Shown piece after piece: positions 9,308-58,045 of a DNA stretch of 64,000 nt. Origin of the DNA: Pycnococcus provasolii. Lineage: Eukaryota > Chlorophyta > Pseudoscourfieldiophyceae > Pseudoscourfieldiales > Pycnococcaceae. Positions within the stretch are counted from its first letter, which is position 1; every line of letters begins with the position of its first letter. The notes below the pieces were generated by a model. The model was not told the origin of the DNA. It worked only from the letters and a program-made list of their open reading frames with translations, and ran no database searches. The stretch is taken from contig OW568865.1 of assembly GCA_938743325.2 (NCBI GenBank), positions 496,001-560,000 of the forward strand, read 5' to 3'. A program made the translations under genes and the position numbers.

Positions 9308-9769
9308 GAAGAACGAAGATTGAAGAGCCCGAGGGGTGCACAGGCACAGGCACAGGCACAGCCGCCGCCACAGACAGACCAGTGGAAAAATGCGAAATGC
9401 CCGGCACTTGGAGGGAGGGGAGGGGGCGGAAAACTACCTCAGGTGTCAGGGAAAGAAAGAGGCGGCAAATCATACCCGTAGGAAGGCCTACGGGTAGTCT
9501 AGGGGGGAAGTGGGGACCAAAACCCTAACTACAGTAAACCCTAACTGTGAAAAACCCTAACCTTCCCCCTACCTTAGTCTAACTTTAAGGTAGTTGGGAG
9601 GAATTAGGGTTAGGGTTAGGGTTAGGGGGAGGCGTTCGTTAGTTTAGGGGTTAGTTTAGGGGTTGGCTCATGCGCATTTGATTATACCTTTTGATCATTT
9701 TCTTGCTCTTCGATGCTTGCCCTCTTTTAAACATCGTTCCTCGCCTTAGGCCTTAAAAAAAACATTTGA
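9308..9769. promoter_or_regulatory. Divergent promoter region with telomere-like repeats
   Basis: This 462-bp region separates the divergent starts at 9307 (minus) and 9770 (plus). It contains CCCTAA-type motifs at 9521-9562 and, in the opposite orientation, four perfect TTAGGG units at 9604-9627. Two short hairpins are also present: a 9-bp stem at 9474-9495 and CTACCTT/AAGGTAG around 9570-9594. No gene is supported. A bidirectional promoter is inferred from layout. Confidence 0.6.
9604..9627 (+). repeat. Telomere-like TTAGGG array (4 units)
   Basis: Four uninterrupted TTAGGG hexamers lie between divergent genes. They are followed by degenerate GTTTAGGGG copies to about 9663. Confidence 0.9.
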
Positions 9770-11045: not shown

Positions 11046-11338
11046 CGCAGACGACGGTGTGTGCGTGTGTGACGCAGAGCAAACAAGGGGGACAGGTCAA
11101 CCAACCAAGTGAACAACTAATCACACGAGGCAAGGCCAGCACACGCACGGAGAAGTCCAGAAACCAACCTAACCCTAACCCTAACCCTAACCCTAACCCT
11201 AACGTTTAGGGGTTAGTCTATTTTTGGAATGTTTACCTCCCCCAATCCCCCCAACTTGATTCTCCCGAAGAAGATTGCAGATTTGTCTTTCCCCTCGAAG
11301 AAAGACTTTCAGCCACTCACTCGTCACTTCGCCATAGC
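11046..11338. promoter_or_regulatory. Divergent promoter between RING gene and VDE-related gene
   Basis: A 293-bp spacer between starts at 11045 (minus) and 11339 (plus). It carries a telomere-like array (11167-11201) followed by GTTTAGGGGTTAG. Promoter role is inferred from layout. Confidence 0.6.
11167..11201 (-). repeat. Telomere-like CCCTAA array (about 6 units)
   Basis: Five perfect CCCTAA hexamers plus a partial unit on the plus strand, i.e. TTAGGG reading toward the minus-strand RING gene. Confidence 0.9.
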
Positions 11339-16211: not shown

Positions 16212-17921
16212 TCACGCGCTGCCCAAGTCCACGTATGGCAGGTTGTCGCCCATCTGGTTCGGCATGTCGCCGCGGTTCGTTGCGTCGCCGTAGCCGAGTG
16301 CGCCATCGAAATTCACTCCCCAGCACTTCACCTTGTTGTTGTCGAGGAGCACGCACGCGCGCAATTCCCCCGTTGCAAAAATTCCTCTCGCCACAGCGAG
16401 AACAGTGCGTCCCGTGCCGAAATCGACGTACGGTAGGTTGTCGCCCATCACGCTCGCTCCTCCGCCACGGTTGGTCGTGTCGCCGTAGCCGAGTTGGCCT
16501 TGGCCATTATATCCCCAGCACTTCAGCTTGTCGTTGTCGAGGATCGCGCACGTAGTAGTACCACCTGCTGCGACTTGCTTGACCGTGCGTCCCGTGCCGA
16601 GATCGATGTACCCCATGTTGTCACCCATCTCGTTCGGTCCGTCGCCGCGGTCGTTCGTGTCACCGCAGCAGAGTCTGCCACCGTAATTATATCCCCACCA
16701 CTTGAGCTTGTCGTTGTCGAGGATCGCGTGGGTGGTGGCGCCATTCGCCTTAATCTGCTTGACCGTGCGTCCTGTGCCGACATCGACGTACGGCAGGTTG
16801 TCGCCCATCTCGTTCGGTCCGTCGCCGCGGTTGGTCGTGTCGCCGTAGCCGAGTTGGCCAGATCCATTATATCCCCAGCACTTCACCTTGTCGTTGTCGA
16901 GGATTGCGCACGTATGACTGCTTTCCGCTGAGATCTGCTTGACTGTGCGTCCCGTGCCGACGTCGACGTACGGCAGGTTGTCGCCCATATCGTTCGGAAG
17001 GCCGCCGCGGTTGTTCGTGTCGCCGTAGCCGAGTCCGCCAGCATAATTTCCTCCCCAGCACTTCAGCTTGTCGTTGTCGAGGATCGCGCACGTGTGACTG
17101 TCTCCCATTGAGATCTGCTTGACCGTGCGTCCTGTGCCGACATCGACGTACGGCAGGTTGTCGCCCATCTCGTTCGGTCCGTCGCCGCGGTTGTTCGTGT
17201 CGCCGTAGCCGAGTGCGCCATTAGCATGACTTCCCCAGCACTTCAGCTTGTCGTTGTCGAGGATCGCGCACGTATAACTGCCAGCAGACCCAAAACTCGC
17301 TGTGATTTGCTTGACCGTGCGTCCTGTGCCGAGGTCGACATACGGCAGGTTGTCGCCCATATCGTTCGGAAGGCCACCGACATGACCGCGGGCGGTCATG
17401 TCGCCGTAGCCGAGTTGGCCAACATTATTAAATCCCCAGCACTTCGCCATATTGTTCGAGAGAACTGCACAACTATGCGAATCGCCAACACTAAGCCTGT
17501 TCGCCATGCCTCCCACACCCACGTCGCACGTCGTTCCACTCCACCCTTCCAGGCAGTCGCACTCGAACCCACCGGTTGGAAGTCCAACCATGGCGTCCGT
17601 TCCTGGTTCGTGGCACACGGGCATGTCACTTACCAGCATGCTATTTTTGTTCGTGGCGGCTTGTTCTCCGTTGACGAAAACTCCCCCCGTGGCGTGTACA
17701 TCCCCCAGAAACGTCAAAGTATCTGCAGTCGCTGCACCTGCGTTCACCTTAAGTTCCTTGGAAGGCGCGACGGCGGATATGCTGACGGTTCCGTTATCTT
17801 GCATTCTCACAGGGAAATCCTGATGATTGGCCGACGCCGATGATGATGACGACGGCTGCGCGAGTGCACCCCCATCAAACACAAACAACAACACCAACGG
17901 GAGCACAACAACAAGGAGCAT
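16212..17921 (-). CDS. Secreted RCC1/BLIP-II-like beta-propeller protein with EGF-like module
   Basis: 569 residues. Residues 1-22 are a signal peptide ending GGALA. A short region with an EGF-like Cys pattern follows (FECDCLEGWSGTTCDVG, about residues 113-131). From about residue 140 to the end there are seven or so 60-residue RCC1-type blades of the form TCAILDNDKLKCWG...GQLGYGDTNNRG...MGDNLPYVDVGTGRTVKQI. Each blade has a Cys pair nine residues apart (C-AILDNDKLK-C), presumably a disulfide, which fits an extracellular location rather than the nuclear RCC1 exchange factor. The central blades repeat with a 180-nt period, so they arose by recent tandem duplication. An extracellular binding or lectin-like role is inferred; ligand unknown. 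Confidence 0.75.
   Translation of the reverse strand: MLLVVVLPLVLLFVFDGGALAQPSSSSSASANHQDFPVRMQDNGTVSISAVAPSKELKVNAGAATADTLTFLGDVHATGGVFVNGEQAATNKNSMLVSDMPVCHEPGTDAMVGLPTGGFECDCLEGWSGTTCDVGVGGMANRLSVGDSHSCAVLSNNMAKCWGFNNVGQLGYGDMTARGHVGGLPNDMGDNLPYVDLGTGRTVKQITASFGSAGSYTCAILDNDKLKCWGSHANGALGYGDTNNRGDGPNEMGDNLPYVDVGTGRTVKQISMGDSHTCAILDNDKLKCWGGNYAGGLGYGDTNNRGGLPNDMGDNLPYVDVGTGRTVKQISAESSHTCAILDNDKVKCWGYNGSGQLGYGDTTNRGDGPNEMGDNLPYVDVGTGRTVKQIKANGATTHAILDNDKLKWWGYNYGGRLCCGDTNDRGDGPNEMGDNMGYIDLGTGRTVKQVAAGGTTTCAILDNDKLKCWGYNGQGQLGYGDTTNRGGGASVMGDNLPYVDFGTGRTVLAVARGIFATGELRACVLLDNNKVKCWGVNFDGALGYGDATNRGDMPNQMGDNLPYVDLGSA
16390..17460 (-). repeat. Exact 180-nt tandem repeats encoding propeller blades
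   Basis: The same CTTGTCGTTGTCGAGGA segment recurs at 16528, 16708, 16888, 17068 and 17248, i.e. at exact 180-nt spacing, with flanking units more diverged. The high nucleotide similarity, including third positions, points to recent duplication or gene conversion. Confidence 0.9.
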
Positions 17922-18351
17922 GAGCGTAGTGGTCTTGACTATTGATTATGATGAAGGGGCCCCACCACCCGAACGGAGGCACCTCACAGGCCGGCCAGCT
18001 TGGGCAAGGCAAGCACTGTGTGTGCAAGTGCAAGGCCACAGCTCTGTGCTGTCCCTCTGTGGCTCTGTGCTGTCCCTCTGTGCTGTGCTGTGGACTGTGC
18101 TGTGTGTGGGGGAACAAAAAAGTCTTCTTGTGTGCGGGGCCCATCATCCCCATCAGAATCAGTTACCCGGTACGGGTAATCGTCCCTCCCTCCCTCATTC
18201 ACCTGATGAATTGATGAGACCAGTTGGTGGTTAGGGTTATTGGTTATGATTAGGGTTGTGGGTTCGGGTTAGGGTTGTGGGTGATCTCTCTCCCTCTCTC
18301 CCTGGACTCTCCCCTTTCTCCTCACTTTTTGGTTTCCTCTGGCTTTTTTCC
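17922..18351. promoter_or_regulatory. Divergent promoter region between RCC1-like gene and TAF12
   Basis: A 430-bp spacer between starts at 17921 (minus) and 18352 (plus). It contains a CTGTGCTGTCCCTCTGTGG-type tandem repeat (about 18040-18105) and telomere-like GGTTAGGGTT motifs at 18228-18281. The frames seen inside it start at non-ATG codons or are low complexity. Confidence 0.55.
18228..18281 (+). repeat. Degenerate telomere-like repeats
   Basis: Motifs such as GGTTAGGGTTATTGG, ATTAGGGTTGTGGG and GGGTTAGGGTTGTGGG lie 70-120 bp upstream of the TAF12 ATG. Confidence 0.8.
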
Positions 18352-21318: not shown

Positions 21319-21594
21319 GACTGCTTGTGCGGAACGGAGGAGGGAAATGCGTGACACGGAGCGAAGCAGACAGGGCTCGGAGGCCTGCTTTGTCTTTGTG
21401 TTTTTGAAGGAACCCGAACCGAACCGAAACAATACAACAGCGAACCCAAGACGTTCTGGTTAGGGGTTTGGAGTCTCGGTTAGGGTTTGGGGTCGCGGTT
21501 AGGGGTTTGGGGTTAGGGTTTTGGATGTTTCATTTTATTTTTGGATTGTTCTCATTCTGGTCCTATTTGGTCCTATTTGGTCTTACAGTACCCT
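21319..21594. promoter_or_regulatory. Divergent promoter with telomere-like repeats
   Basis: A 276-bp spacer between starts at 21318 (minus) and 21595 (plus). Degenerate telomere-like units (GGTTAGGGGTTTGG, GGTTAGGGTTTGGGG, GGGTTAGGGTTTT) fill 21459-21524. Confidence 0.6.
21459..21524 (+). repeat. Degenerate telomere-like repeats (GGTTAGGGGTTTGG type)
   Basis: Four spaced copies of a TTAGGG-like unit lie about 70-135 bp upstream of the TruA ATG. Confidence 0.8.
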
Positions 21595-23672: not shown

Positions 23673-23682
23673 CATTATTGGG
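23673..23682 (+). repeat. Target-site duplication, left copy (10 bp)
   Basis: CATTATTGGG directly precedes the left terminal repeat and is repeated exactly at 24451-24460 after the right terminal repeat. Confidence 0.85.
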
Positions 23683-24450
23683 GAGTTTTCGCCTGAAGTG
23701 GACCAAAAATGCCGAATTTCGCCTGAAGTGGACCGTTAGCTAACCCTAGCCATAACCCTAACCCTAATCCCTAACCCTAGCCCTAACCATCCCTCTGAAC
23801 GGACAGGACAGGCAGTGGCCGACTGGGAGCTAATCCCCCCCAAAAAAGGGGGGGTTGCGGCCAAAATTGGGGAAAATTAGTCCCCCGACCAATTCTGTCG
23901 ACCAATCCCCGGTCAGGTTGGTTGGGGACAACATCCCGGCGCCATGGCGTCGTCGCCGGCGGTGGTGGCGCGCGTAGTGGGGCAGTCTGAGGTGTATGGC
24001 TGGTGGGCAGGCTCACAGGCTGACAGGTGGGGGACTGGTTGACCTCATGTAAGTTGATCTTGTAACATCATGAACAACCTCTTGTCCCATAACCTTAAGG
24101 TCAACCCACTTTCCCTTAAGGTCGCATCCCCCCTCCATGTAGGTTTCATGTTCGAAGATGTTGTTACATGGAGCTTACATGAGTCTTACCAACAAGGCAT
24201 AAGCCAGCCGCGACGCCGCGTAGCCAGTGAGCCAGCCATACGACACAGACTGCGCTACTACGGGTGCCGGTACCGCCGGCGACGACGCCATGGTATCGGC
24301 ATGTTGGTCAAAGAAGTCGTGGACTCGTGGGTGTAGAGTTAGGGATTAGGGTGTAGGGTTAGGGATTAGGGTTAGGGTTATGGCTAGGGTTAGCTAACGG
24401 TCCACTTCAGGCGAAATTCGGCATTTTTGGTCCACTTCAGGCGAAAACTC
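23683..24450. mobile_element. Non-autonomous DNA transposon (Mutator-like MITE), 768 bp, 97-bp TIRs
   Basis: The ends are perfect inverted repeats of 97 bp, starting GAGTTTTCGCCTGAAGTGGA on both strands. Each TIR has two copies of a CGCCTGAAGTGGACC unit, then GTTAGCTAACCC and a telomere-like tract of CCCTAA/CCCTAG units. A 10-bp direct repeat flanks the element, within the 9-11 bp typical of Mutator-like elements. The interior has nested imperfect inverted repeats (GCCATGGCGTCGTCGCCGGC at 23941 and its complement near 24270; CATGTAAG/CTTACATG) around two CCTTAAGG palindromes. No transposase frame is present, so mobility would need a partner element. The identical TIRs and intact target duplication suggest recent insertion. 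Confidence 0.85.
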
Positions 24451-24460
24451 CATTATTGGG
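24451..24460 (+). repeat. Target-site duplication, right copy (10 bp)
   Basis: CATTATTGGG, identical to 23673-23682. Confidence 0.85.
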
Positions 24461-24676
24461 TGTCCACCATCATCGCATTAAATGCAAGTCATATGTAAAG
24501 CAAACACGATAATACAGTAGATGGGTGACCGGTCAGGTCCTTCCTAAAGGTGTACCCTAGGCGAGAACGACTTTTTTTTATCGGGCAGTTTGGGGGTTTC
24601 GGGTTCGGGGTTCGGGTTTGGGTTCGGGAGAGGTTTTTTTTGAGTCCATTTTTTTCATCCCACGTGGCGTCCTCCC

Positions 24677-25891
24677 ATGGCGGCGGCGTCACACCGCCTC
24701 GCGCCAGGCGCCGCGCACGCACCGCAAGCACGCTCAGCGCGTCTTCGCGCGAAACACGCACCTGCTCATACGCAGAACAGGACACGTGCTCGTGTGCCGC
24801 AATGCTCGGGCCAGCTTGCAGGGCACGCCTCGCTCACGGATATGCTCGAGGTCGCAATCACGACGCGAGAACGCGCGGAGTTTTTTGCTCGTGCAGAGCG
24901 AGAAGATACGAACGCCATGCGGCTCTTTCACGGGGAAGAGGGGTGCCCCGGTTTGGCTGTGGATCGATATGGGTCCGTCGCGCTCGTGCAGAGCTGGCGC
25001 GAGCCACTCAACGCGACGCAGAAGGCTGAGGTGCGCGAGTTCCTTCTCAGCCGCATCCCCGCCCTGAATCGTGTCGTGTTCCACCTTAGGGGCGCCGCAG
25101 CCCGCCGTGCTGCCGTGGAAAGCGGTGACAGCTTAGGCACTGTGCGCGAAGACGATGTGAATGAGGATCTCACCACGTTCAGAGAACTTGGACTGAATTA
25201 TGCTTTTCAGCCCCTGAGAAAAGGTGGCGATCCTTCTCTCTTCCTCGACTTCAGACCGGTAAGACGATGGGTGCGTGATCATTCCGAGGGTGCAGACGTC
25301 CTCAACCTCTTCTCGTACACGTGCGGAATCGGCGTTGCGGCTGCCGCAGGCGGTGCCGCCTCCGTGCTGAACGTCGACCACTCGCAAACTTACCTAGACT
25401 ATGGACGGACGAACGCCGAGCTCAACAACGTGAGCATGTCCAATCTCGCAGAAGACTTCTTTCCAGCCGCGCGACAGCTTGCAGGCTTGCCCATGAAGGG
25501 GCGCGCGGTAAGAAACGGCCGTGGACGACGTGGTGCACGTGCTCGAAGGTTCTCCAAGATGAACCCGCAATGCTTCGACATTGTCGTGCTCGACCCGCCG
25601 ACGAAAACAAAGACGCCGTTTGGCGCTGTTGACATCAAAAATGATTATGCCGCCCTGTCGAAGCCAGCTCTTCTCGCCACGCGGCCAGGCGGTGTTTTGG
25701 TGGCATCTAATCACGCTCACGATGTCCTAGCGGAGGACTGGATCGAGTCGGTGGTTCGTTGTGGAAAAAAAGCCGGCAGACCTGTGGCCGATGCTCGATT
25801 GCTCGAAGTAGAGTGTGACGACGACGACTTTAGATCACCGAATAAGCCGCACCTACTGAAGGTTGGCCTCTTTACCACAGAGTTTGGGTAA
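24677..25891 (+). CDS. SAM-dependent rRNA cytosine methyltransferase, RlmI-like (organellar)
   Basis: 404 residues. The first 50 are Ala/Arg/His-rich without acids, like a plastid or mitochondrial presequence. Residues about 85-110 include GLAVDRYGSVALVQSW, typical of the RlmI/YccW N-terminal part. A class I methyltransferase fold follows: motif I VLNLFSYTCGIGVAAAAGGA (about 215-235), then NVDHSQ for the SAM ribose, and motif IV DIVVLDPPT (about 308). The family makes 5-methylcytosine in bacterial large-subunit rRNA, so an organellar ribosome is the likely target (inference). An Arg-rich insertion (NGRGRRGARARR) lies between motifs. Degenerate GGGTTCGGG-type repeats (24589-24635) lie just upstream. 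Confidence 0.8.
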   Translation: MAAASHRLAPGAAHAPQARSARLRAKHAPAHTQNRTRARVPQCSGQLAGHASLTDMLEVAITTRERAEFFARAEREDTNAMRLFHGEEGCPGLAVDRYGSVALVQSWREPLNATQKAEVREFLLSRIPALNRVVFHLRGAAARRAAVESGDSLGTVREDDVNEDLTTFRELGLNYAFQPLRKGGDPSLFLDFRPVRRWVRDHSEGADVLNLFSYTCGIGVAAAAGGAASVLNVDHSQTYLDYGRTNAELNNVSMSNLAEDFFPAARQLAGLPMKGRAVRNGRGRRGARARRFSKMNPQCFDIVVLDPPTKTKTPFGAVDIKNDYAALSKPALLATRPGGVLVASNHAHDVLAEDWIESVVRCGKKAGRPVADARLLEVECDDDDFRSPNKPHLLKVGLFTTEFG

Positions 25892-27780: not shown

Positions 27781-28437
27781 GCCTCAAGTTGAAAAAAAGA
27801 AAATGCAAATGAAACAGTCCTGAGAAAAACAACTCAAAGGAACAGGCGACGGTCAAACCAAACGACTTGTGCAAGTCTACCAACTACATAGTCTATTTGG
27901 TAAGGTGAAATAGAACGGAGAATCACACTATCACAGTCTAATCTTACGTGGTATTGTACATTGTATGGTCTGACAGGACAGGACAGGACCCCATTTGTAA
28001 ATACTTTGTTGTTGTCGCCATCACATCACTCAATCAGAAGCAGAATATCAGACAGACCGGCCGAAGCACTGAAGCAGAAGACGTCAGATGTCAGGATGGA
28101 TTGGTTCTCCAACAAACGGTCATTTCCATCATGCCTCCCATCCTCCCTGCTGTTGAGCTTTGTCAAAGTTAGGGTAGAGTGGTTAGGGTTAGGGTTATGA
28201 GTAGGGGTTAGGGGTTAGGGGTTCGAGTTCGGGGTTAGGGGTTAGGATTCGGGTTCAATTTCCTAGCTAACCGTAGGAGGCGTTGGTTCTTCCCCCTGGC
28301 ACCTTGCTGGCACTGGTTGCCTAGGCGGCGGCGAACGCGTCCCATCCCATCCCATCACAATCCCATCACATCGTCTTCCGCCTGACGAATTCATTCATAT
28401 CAGTCAGTGCTCCAGTTTCTCGTTCTTATAGTTACTT
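27781..28437. promoter_or_regulatory. Divergent promoter region upstream of LST8
   Basis: A 657-bp spacer between starts at 27780 (minus) and 28438 (plus). It includes an ACAGGACAGGACAGG repeat (27972-27987), telomere-like repeats (28171-28250) and CCCATCCCATCACA repeats (28340-28368). The short plus frames (27948-28200) have no domain character. Confidence 0.5.
28171..28250 (+). repeat. Telomere-like repeats upstream of LST8
   Basis: GTTAGGGTTAGGGTTATG followed by several GGGGTTAGGGGTTAGG-type copies and a GTTCGGGGTTAGGGG run. Confidence 0.85.
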
Positions 28438-31509: not shown

Positions 31510-31825
31510 ACCAAAAAAGGATAGACTAGGAGATAAGCTTTGAGCTGTTCTGAATTCTGGACGGGAAAGAATTAAAGAAAGTGGTATGGGTTCGGTTGGG
31601 TTAGGGTATGGATTACAGGATTAGGGTTCGGTTCGGGTTAGGGTTTGGATTAGGGTTAGGGTTCGTCGTTTTAGGGTTAGGGTTTTCATTTTTAGGATTC
31701 GTTGGAGTCCATCCCACTTGTCGTCACCGCGCACTCGCTGTTGATCTGCACGCGTGTTTTGGTGATCTTGTAGGTGTGGTGAAGCTGCGCTTGCTTGTTC
31801 CGTTTTCTTGGGTGAGACTTGGGTC
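31510..31825. promoter_or_regulatory. Divergent promoter with telomere-like repeats
   Basis: A 316-bp spacer between starts at 31509 (minus) and 31826 (plus), with TTAGGGTTCGG- and GGTTAGGGTTTGG-type units over 31589-31692. Confidence 0.6.
31589..31692 (+). repeat. Telomere-like repeats (interrupted)
   Basis: At least seven GGGTTAGGG-like units with variant spacers occur between the shikimate enzyme gene and the twin-CX9C gene. Confidence 0.85.
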
Positions 31826-32624: not shown

Positions 32625-32793
32625 CGAAACCGATATGGGAGGCGGAGAACGCAAGATGGGATTAGTGGCCAGGAGGGAGGAGGAGGAGATGAGGGTGTTA
32701 GGGTTAGGGTTAGGATTAGGGTTAGGCAGGTTCCGGTTACCGACGCCGCCACACACGCACTCTCCGAACCACAACTCCACTGGCGAGCCTAGC
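32625..32793. promoter_or_regulatory. Very short bidirectional promoter (169 bp)
   Basis: This spacer between the MIF-like and GrpE starts is the shortest divergent spacer in the window. It contains TTAGGGTTAGGGTTAGGATT and a further TTAGGGTTAGG at 32697-32726. Confidence 0.65.
32697..32726 (+). repeat. Telomere-like TTAGGG array
   Basis: Five units, one with a GGATTAGGG variant, about 70 bp upstream of both start codons. Confidence 0.9.
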
Positions 32794-39947: not shown

Positions 39948-40622
39948 CTATTGTGCTCCTGCTCCTCCTGGCGGTGGTTGCGGTCGCCGTAACTGTGCTG
40001 GGCGTAACGCGGGGTCGCGTTGTCCATTATTGAAGTGTCCGCCGTTAGCCATGCCAATTTCACCTACAAATGCGTTTCTGATGTTAATCGCGCATAACCT
40101 GTGAAAACCAGATTGAAACTGGCACAGGCCATGAGTCGGCACGGCAGTGTGAGTCGGCACGGCAGAGCTGTGAGGCGGCGCGGCAGGGCTGTGAGGCGGC
40201 ACGGCAGAGCTGTGAGGCGGCACGGCAGAGCTGTGAGTCGGCACGGCAGAGCTGTGATGCTCTGTCGCCCACTCCTCGTCGTTGGCAATGGCGGTGGCAG
40301 TTCGAGTGTCACGCCTTCCTCCGCCTCTCCTGTAGCTTGTGCTGCCGTAGCCTTCATGAGGCAGTGGCGCACCATGCAGGTACGGCAAGCTCAGGTGCTG
40401 GCTCACCTCCGCGCAAGGGTCAACGCACAGGATATTCGTCAGCAGCAGCTCCTGGTGCGTGAAAGCAGCCTGTGCAACTTCGATCTTGTTGTTGATCTCC
40501 TTGATCTGCTCCTTGATCCGGTTGAAGAAGTTAAAGTCATCCTCGTCGCTGTACAGCTGCGAGTGGATGCTCTCGTGGAACTTGAGCCTCGTGCGCTCAA
40601 GCCTCGCCTCGCGCTCCTCCAT
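39948..40622 (-). CDS. Coiled-coil protein with heptapeptide repeat tail; 5' end uncertain
   Basis: 224 residues from the first ATG (40622). The N-terminal 60 residues form a charged coiled coil (EEREARLERTRLKFHESIHS, FFNRIKEQIKEINNKIEVAQ). A minisatellite-encoded tail of SSAVPTH/SSAVPPH heptads follows (about residues 130-170). The reading frame stays open and Ala-rich for about 60 codons upstream of the ATG, and a pyrimidine tract with CCATTCCAG lies at about 40703-40720, resembling a 3' splice site. The 747-bp transposon-like element starts 200 bp upstream, so a first exon may lie elsewhere or have been lost. Family not recognised. Confidence 0.45.
   Translation of the reverse strand: MEEREARLERTRLKFHESIHSQLYSDEDDFNFFNRIKEQIKEINNKIEVAQAAFTHQELLLTNILCVDPCAEVSQHLSLPYLHGAPLPHEGYGSTSYRRGGGRRDTRTATAIANDEEWATEHHSSAVPTHSSAVPPHSSAVPPHSPAAPPHSSAVPTHTAVPTHGLCQFQSGFHRLCAINIRNAFVGEIGMANGGHFNNGQRDPALRPAQLRRPQPPPGGAGAQ
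40135..40257 (-). repeat. 21-bp minisatellite, about six units
   Basis: Unit GTCGGCACGGCAGAGCTGTGA and variants (one 18-bp unit), in frame with the coiled-coil ORF and coding for a seven-residue Ser-Ala-Val-Pro-Pro-His repeat. Units have no unique spacers, so this is not a CRISPR array. Confidence 0.9.
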
Positions 40623-40816
40623 CACGCTTTTTCGCGCCTGCGCCGCGGCGTTGGCGGCGGATGTCTCGTCGCCGCCCGCCGCGGCGGCAGCCGCCGCCTG
40701 CGCCTGGAATGGCGGGGGGGGGGAAAAGGCACGCGGCAGAAGGGGCAGAGAGTAACGCGCCCCCCCCTGTTACTAGAAGGGGGAGACAGGTCCCCTCCTG
40801 GCGGGATAATTAACAA

Positions 40817-40819
40817 TAA
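40817..40819 (+). repeat. Target-site duplication TAA, left copy
   Basis: TAA immediately outside the left terminal repeat; the same TAA follows the right end at 41567-41569. Confidence 0.6.
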
Positions 40820-41566
40820 GGGCCGTCCTATGCGTTGCCCGAAAACCCCCGGGAAAACCGGTTTCCCAGCCCCGTTGTAGAATCTCGACTTGTGGAAACC
40901 GGTTTCCGGGAGGAAACTAGTTTCCACAAAAAACGTGTAGGTTTTTTTGCTACGCGTTTTTTTGGTTTTCTGGCGAAAACTAGTTTTCCAGGTTTCCCTC
41001 CCGACCTAGGTTCTCGACCTTTTCTGAAAACCTCCCTCTCTTGTGAGCTTGCCATGACGTCGGCGCCATGGCGCCGTCGCCGGCGGTGGTGGTGCGCGTA
41101 GCGGCGCAGCCTGAGGCGTTGGGCTGGTGAGCTGGTGGACTGGTGAGGCGTGAGTATACCTCATGTAAGTTAATGTTGTAACATCGTCAACAACATCTCG
41201 TTGTATACAACCTTAAGGTCAACCCACTCTCCCTTAAGGTCGCCTTTACCCTCCATGTTGGTTTGATGTTGAGAAAGTTGTTACATGTTCTTACATGAGG
41301 CACACTCACACCCACCAGTCACCCAGTAAGCCAGCCTTCAAGCCCAACGCCTCAGGCTGCGCCGCTACGCGCACCACCACCGCCTGCGACGGTGCCATGG
41401 CGCTGACGTCATGGCAAGCTCACAAGCCGTACCACCTTCCCGGTGGAGACAAACTGTCGAGACAGGGGGCAACCGGGCAACCCAACCGCACAAAAAAAGC
41501 TTCCTATGCGTAGCCCTCGAAAACCGGTTTCCCCTGGGAGGTTTTTCCCAACGCATAGGACGGCCC
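40820..41566. mobile_element. Non-autonomous DNA transposon with TAA duplication (PIF/Harbinger-like), 747 bp
   Basis: Terminal inverted repeats of 18 perfect bp (GGGCCGTCCTATGCGTTG) are flanked by TAA, as in PIF/Harbinger elements, which duplicate TWA. Inside lies a second pair of long inverted arms (about 41040-41131 and 41341-41426, starting CTTGTGAGCTTGCCATGACG, only a few mismatches). The centre carries two CCTTAAGG palindromes. This core aligns with the core of the element at 23683-24450, although the outer ends of the two elements differ. The left arm holds several short palindromes such as GGAAACCGGTTTCC. No transposase is encoded. The element ends 182 bp upstream of the ERO1 start. 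Confidence 0.75.
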
Positions 41567-41569
41567 TAA
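41567..41569 (+). repeat. Target-site duplication TAA, right copy
   Basis: Matches 40817-40819. Confidence 0.6.
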
Positions 41570-58021: not shown

Positions 58022-58045
58022 GTTAGGGTTAGGGTTAGGGTTAGG
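58022..58045 (+). repeat. Telomere-like TTAGGG array
   Basis: Four TTAGGG units about 55-75 bp upstream of the ATG at 58099. Here the flanking genes are in tandem, not divergent. Confidence 0.9.

Follow-up and report, generated by a model that had tools for sequence, protein, structure and literature searches.

The 768-bp stretch at positions 23683-24450 of the window is a non-autonomous DNA transposon, referred to here as element A, for which a Mutator-like, foldback-type MITE is the best structural fit. Considering the evidence as a whole, we favour, with a probability of about 0.55, the explanation that element A is a Mutator-like element of foldback type, that the telomere-like tract in its terminal inverted repeats (TIRs) was copied from an upstream motif of the host, and that its palindromic core is common to a second element, B. 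The paired 18-bp repeats in the TIRs, element B and the common core go beyond what a sequence-only reading of this DNA had described.

The window, by which we mean the whole stretch of 64,000 bases analysed here, is gene-dense and has a G+C content of 58.6%. Pfam matches (cut-off E 1e-3, and 1e-5 in one run) include Nup192, VDE lipocalin, TFIID_20kDa (TAF12), a fused dehydroquinase/shikimate dehydrogenase, GrpE, ERO1, RCC1 repeats and MnmE, and we infer that the window is nuclear DNA of a photosynthetic eukaryote. Introns seem to be few, because the ORFs are long and uninterrupted, and no tRNA was found in the 64 kb. Two of the ORFs contain repeats of their own: the RCC1-repeat gene (16212-17921) has a 180-bp internal DNA repeat in about five copies, and an ORF on the minus strand (39948-40625, no Pfam match) holds a 21-bp tandem repeat in six copies with 91% matches (40132-40257).

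Structure and classification of element A

The left TIR (23683-23779, plus strand) and the right TIR (24354-24450, minus strand) are complementary at 97 of 97 positions, and the element is flanked by an exact 10-bp target-site duplication, CATTATTGGG, at 23673-23682 and 24451-24460 (both on the plus strand). A 98th pair (23682/24451) falls inside the target duplication, and its pairing is due to chance. Tests of 12 x 12 boundary pairs gave the longest target duplication (10 bp) for 23683/24450, and these are exactly the boundaries drawn previously. The second-longest perfect inverted-repeat arm in the window (arms of at least 16 bp, span below 3 kb) measures 44 bp and lies inside element B. 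The longest ORFs overlapping element A span 88 and 77 aa, and neither has a Pfam match. The perfect 97-bp TIRs, the 10-bp target duplication and the lack of coding capacity, all reported by the sequence-only reading, are thus borne out. Element A has a folding energy of -272 kcal/mol (z -25, n = 20 shuffles) and pairs with itself along much of its length; this extensive self-complementarity and the 18-bp and 6-bp tandem repeats in the TIRs are foldback traits.

Mutator-like elements (MULEs) are described as having TIRs of more than 100 bp and duplications of 8-10 bp (PMC5225508), a criterion for mining them accepts duplications of 8-11 bp (PMC3903597), and in the MULE Hop, perfect TIRs of 99 bp go with 9-bp duplications (PMC5014426). 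The exact 10-bp duplication of element A lies within these limits. Its TIRs are 100% identical, as against the more than 75% expected of long MULE TIRs of about or above 100 bp, and their 97 bp come just below the '>100 bp' wording and near the 99 bp of Hop. Element A is also short and without coding capacity, as is a MITE. Thus, the earlier assignment to the Mutator-like MITEs agrees with the target duplication, the TIR length and the lack of a recognisable gene, the superfamily itself being assigned on structure rather than proved by a transposase.

Like Hop and Muta1, element A combines TIRs of about 100 bp with a target duplication in the 8-11-bp range. Subterminal repeats are a further likeness, the TIR of Muta1 containing nine 12-bp repeats (PMC5225508), as is the occurrence of non-autonomous copies without a transposase gene among MULEs. 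Unlike these elements, it has an inner TIR formed by a tract of telomere-like hexamers that resembles upstream motifs of the host. The Mutator/Foldback element Tm1 of root-knot nematodes also combines composite TIRs, which contain short tandem repeats, with mostly 8-10-bp duplications, MITE-like members and one described case of nested insertion, but its repeat is a motif of about 14 bp present in varying numbers, and the string 'telomer-' is absent from the main text of that report (PMC3169594). Judged by titles and the openings of abstracts, the literature yielded no Mutator-like element with telomere-type TIR repeats.

Within the window, the TIR of element A has no second copy, and Pfam identified no transposase domain among 28 hand-picked genes (for a WD40 protein, among the best 25 of 44 families). 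Viral contigs contained no match to the exact 18-bp TIR repeat, to a 19-bp piece of the core or to the 18-bp TIR of element B; a 27-bp degenerate core piece had none in the contig search, and prokaryotic genome contigs had none for each of two patterns. A 15-bp TIR pattern occurred once each in 24 viral-contig stretches, which we rejected as copies of the element, since none of them holds a longer 27-bp piece and their number is, by our own estimate, no higher than chance would give in a collection of that size. Nor did the viral contigs contain a relative of the WD40 protein, which we label LST8-like.

Composite terminal inverted repeats

The TIRs of element A are made up of two parts. The outer part (bases 1-57) carries two identical 18-bp repeats, TTTCGCCTGAAGTGGACC, at a spacing of 30 bp, located at 23687-23704 and 23717-23734 on the plus strand of the left TIR and at 24399-24416 (inner) and 24429-24446 (outer) on the minus strand of the right TIR. 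At three or fewer mismatches, these are the only four matches in the window, as against 0.09 expected. On sequence grounds, the 18-bp repeats are probably transposase sites. The inner part (bases 58-97, about 40 bp) is a degenerate telomere-like CTAACC tract, in agreement with the earlier description of TIRs ending internally in CCCTAA-type sequence. On the left, the tract delineated by a tandem repeat finder (23740-23788, 6-bp unit CTAACC, C-rich on the plus strand) stops about 9 bp past the TIR. On the right, the tract (24329-24393, G-rich on the plus strand, identified by tandem repeat finder and cluster scan) runs about 25 bp further inward than the TIR and includes a 20-bp tandem duplication. 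The G-rich strands of both tracts point outward, the right one toward the gene at 24677. On the left side, it is the C-rich strand that reads inward, the reverse of the commoner orientation in the host, an arrangement that suits outward over inward transcription.

The perfection of the TIRs contrasts with the state of the core, whose stem arms (23929-24003 and 24232-24306) match at 61 of 75 positions. Because the tract lies within a perfect TIR even though the core arms have diverged to this extent, it belongs to element A. At the divergence of the core arms, an identical 40-bp tract would be expected with p = 3e-4 and identity of the whole 97 bp with p = 2e-9, so the tract shares in the constraint, or in the recent homogenisation, of the ends. 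The equality of the ends could stem from selection, from conversion or from a recent transposition, and conversion could have included the tract without any function on its part.

Telomere-like motifs upstream of genes

The window contains 57 copies of the hexamer TTAGGG/CCCTAA, compared with a mean of 10.4 and a maximum of 17 in 50 simulated sequences of matched dinucleotide frequencies. Of these units, three fall within ORFs and the other 54 are non-coding, nine of the 54 being in element A. The remaining 45 non-coding units form nine clusters of at least three exact units, in addition to four single matches; the single match at 41564 is merely the junction between the end of element B and its TAA duplication. 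Once element A, the three ORF matches and the four single matches are set aside, a start codon follows within 300 bp of the midpoint in eight of the nine clusters and at 323 bp in the ninth. By chance, 40.5% of non-coding positions would lie within 300 bp upstream of a start (binomial 0.004). Gene starts are those of the hand-picked ORFs, introns being assumed absent, and two of the nine clusters precede one and the same gene. The likeness between the TIR tract and upstream motifs of the window, noted previously, is therefore upheld: the hexamer is the same, and it is clustered 5' of genes.

Clusters upstream of eight genes lie at 9523-9661, 11173-11211, 18231-18274, 21460-21518, 28169-28240, 31601-31682, 32698-32721 and 58023-58040. 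The G-rich strand corresponds to the sense strand of the gene in six of the eight assignable clusters and to the opposite strand in two (the ninth lies between divergent genes), a bias that is not significant among these host clusters (binomial 0.14). These clusters represent a possible general promoter motif of the host. A GGGTTC-type tract at 24601-24627 (plus strand), found by the cluster scan between element A and the gene at 24677, lies about 50 bp before the start of that gene and is probably its own promoter-type tract. We use 'telomere-like' for likeness to TTAGGG, which may not be the telomere repeat of the host; the telomere unit given for Chloropicon is (TT)TTTAGG, not TTAGGG. In the subtelomeric STAR elements of yeast, TTAGGG repeats are bound by Tbf1 and act as insulators (PMC9272169).

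A palindromic core common to elements A and B

Element B (40820-41566) is a 747-bp palindrome with an 18-bp perfect TIR, GGGCCGTCCTATGCGTTG, and duplicated TAA at 40817-40819 and 41567-41569. It folds about as strongly as element A (z -23), and the stem of its core pairs at 83 of 86 positions, or at 94 of 104 when taken longer. In its TIR and TAA duplication, element B is like a PIF/Harbinger (Tourist-like) MITE: the 18-bp TIR starts with GGGCC and lies within the 14-25 bp given for this group, and the duplication is of the TTA/TAA type, a 3-bp match being weak at a 1/64 chance. By eye, the G(N)5GTT motif by which such elements were sought in Medicago is absent from the TIR, a difference of little weight for a distant host. 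Element B also differs from PIF/Harbinger MITEs in having a palindromic core in common with the Mutator-type element A.

The palindromic cores of A (23929-24306) and B (41040-41426) are homologous. Aligning 41061-41299 of B with 23937-24183 of A gives 201 identical columns out of 252 (E 2e-43), and the four core arms of the two elements can be aligned together, with invariant blocks. Outside the core, the picture is different. In the same orientation, no similarity links the outer arms; in the opposite one, the left outer arm of B (40959-40981) and the extreme end of A give a short gapped match with a score of 27. In the two comparisons made, 0 and 1 of 500 shuffles attained this score, and a segment inside an F-box ORF equals it. 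Given this match, the outer shells may not be wholly unrelated. We nonetheless give little weight to a relationship between the outer arms, same-orientation similarity being nil and the reverse match equalled elsewhere in the window. A target duplication belonging to the core likewise finds little support: B has none of at least 5 bp, A has one of 6 bp among many boundary pairs tried, and neither set of core borders offers a convincing case.

Most simply, the core would be a third MITE, itself palindromic, that inserted into A as well as into B. Among the 195 rice coding-MULEs that contain nested insertions, 107 carry a Tourist-like MITE, whole or partial, at one site (PMC3903597). The lack of a convincing target duplication at the core borders counts against simple nesting and agrees better with A and B being chimeras, in which one core, by exchange or capture of ends, came to be framed by Mutator-type ends in A and by PIF/Harbinger-type ends in B. 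The dissimilarity of the outer arms in the same orientation also speaks for such an exchange, as does the core itself, which has the same orientation and a roughly central position in both elements. However, there are two copies only, small target duplications decay, and nested insertion covers most of the same facts. The higher stem identity of B compared with the 61 of 75 in A is what insertions of unequal age would show, and the reverse-orientation match to the end of A, though equalled elsewhere in the window, also counts against chimeras. We regard a chimeric origin as a serious but rather unlikely alternative to nesting.

Origin of the telomere-like tract

Copying from the host motif is not the only conceivable source of the tract. 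It could be a mere internal short tandem repeat of a foldback or MULE TIR, serving as a spacer or as extra transposase sites, with a compositional likeness to the host motif and no promoter function. Tandem repeats within TIRs are indeed known, as in the nine 12-bp repeats of Muta1 and the varying numbers of the roughly 14-bp motif in Tm1, and a 20-bp tandem duplication has lengthened the right tract, in the way in which simple repeats expand. Under this explanation, the enrichment of the same hexamer in the window and its clustering upstream of genes would be coincidence, and we consider it possible, though clearly less probable than copying from the host. A connection with telomere biology is far less convincing. 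The sequence-only reading had raised a link to telomere repair or chromosome ends, for which we found no evidence, element A sitting among genes. The nearest parallel would be the TBE elements of Oxytricha, in which telomere-type repeats form part of the TIR, as in element A, the TIRs bearing the host telomere repeat with one exception mentioned (PMC4724952); element A could similarly have been derived from, targeted to or processed at chromosome ends. Yet the TBE1 and TBE2.1 TIRs printed in that report start with the repeat at the outer tip, whereas the tract of element A lies at the inner end (positions 58-97), and TBE duplicates the 3-bp target ANT, compared with 10 bp in element A. TBE elements are moreover of the Tc1/mariner type, encode a transposase and belong to a ciliate germline. 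With the motif also being common upstream of genes, the telomere story for element A is weak, and an origin in telomere biology very improbable.

Another reading inverts the direction of copying, the family of element A having seeded the tracts upstream of other genes. The motif is of the same type in element A and in the host tracts, and both elements lie close to genes: 226 bp separate the end of A from a start codon that follows it, and B lies 110 bp ahead of the likely start of ERO1. We aligned the outer TIR to ten tract neighbourhoods outside element A (the nine clusters and the GGGTTC-type tract) and obtained scores of 13-25, where the true partner TIR scores 114. In seven of these neighbourhoods, the comparison with shuffles gives no trace of the outer TIR. 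The other three are weakly similar to it, which would favour seeding, with scores of 21-25 reached by 1, 3 and 6 of 200 single-base shuffles, but they remain below the best other segments of the window, which score 27 and include one inside the F-box ORF. Furthermore, TTTCGCCTGAAGTGGACC has no match outside element A in the window at three or fewer mismatches. The earlier suggestion that the element could spread such motifs is thus unsupported here, and seeding by the family of element A is the most improbable of the explanations that we weighed.

Proposed mechanism and implications

Under our preferred explanation, copying of the host motif into the TIR, element A would move by cut and paste as a non-autonomous transposon, with the build of a Mutator-like, foldback-type element. 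Its 18-bp repeats, 30 bp or about three helical turns apart, would be bound in trans by a transposase that an autonomous relative, located elsewhere in the genome, presumably supplies. The inner tract would be a copy of the ordinary upstream gene motif of the host, may be bound by a host telomere-repeat-binding factor, and in the autonomous relative could act as the promoter of the transposase gene or as an outward promoter. The palindromic core would predate the last homogenisation of the ends of element A and, being common to A and B, whose ends differ, would represent the third MITE nested in both.

In MuDR, both the promoters and the sites for the transposase lie within the TIRs, and a promoter of Mu1 reads outward; by analogy, it is plausible that the inner tract is a host promoter motif serving in the TIR. 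The boldest combination, in which one core has been moved by two unrelated transposase systems and Mutator-type ends carry an outward host promoter motif delivered with each jump to both neighbours, appears improbable. If the tract is a spacer only, element A would be ordinary among Mutator-like MITEs except for its unusual TIR repeat. If, conversely, it is a promoter, the end of a transposon contains the general upstream motif of its host, and transposition could rewire neighbouring genes. The pair formed by A and B would, in addition, allow asking how MITEs switch ends.
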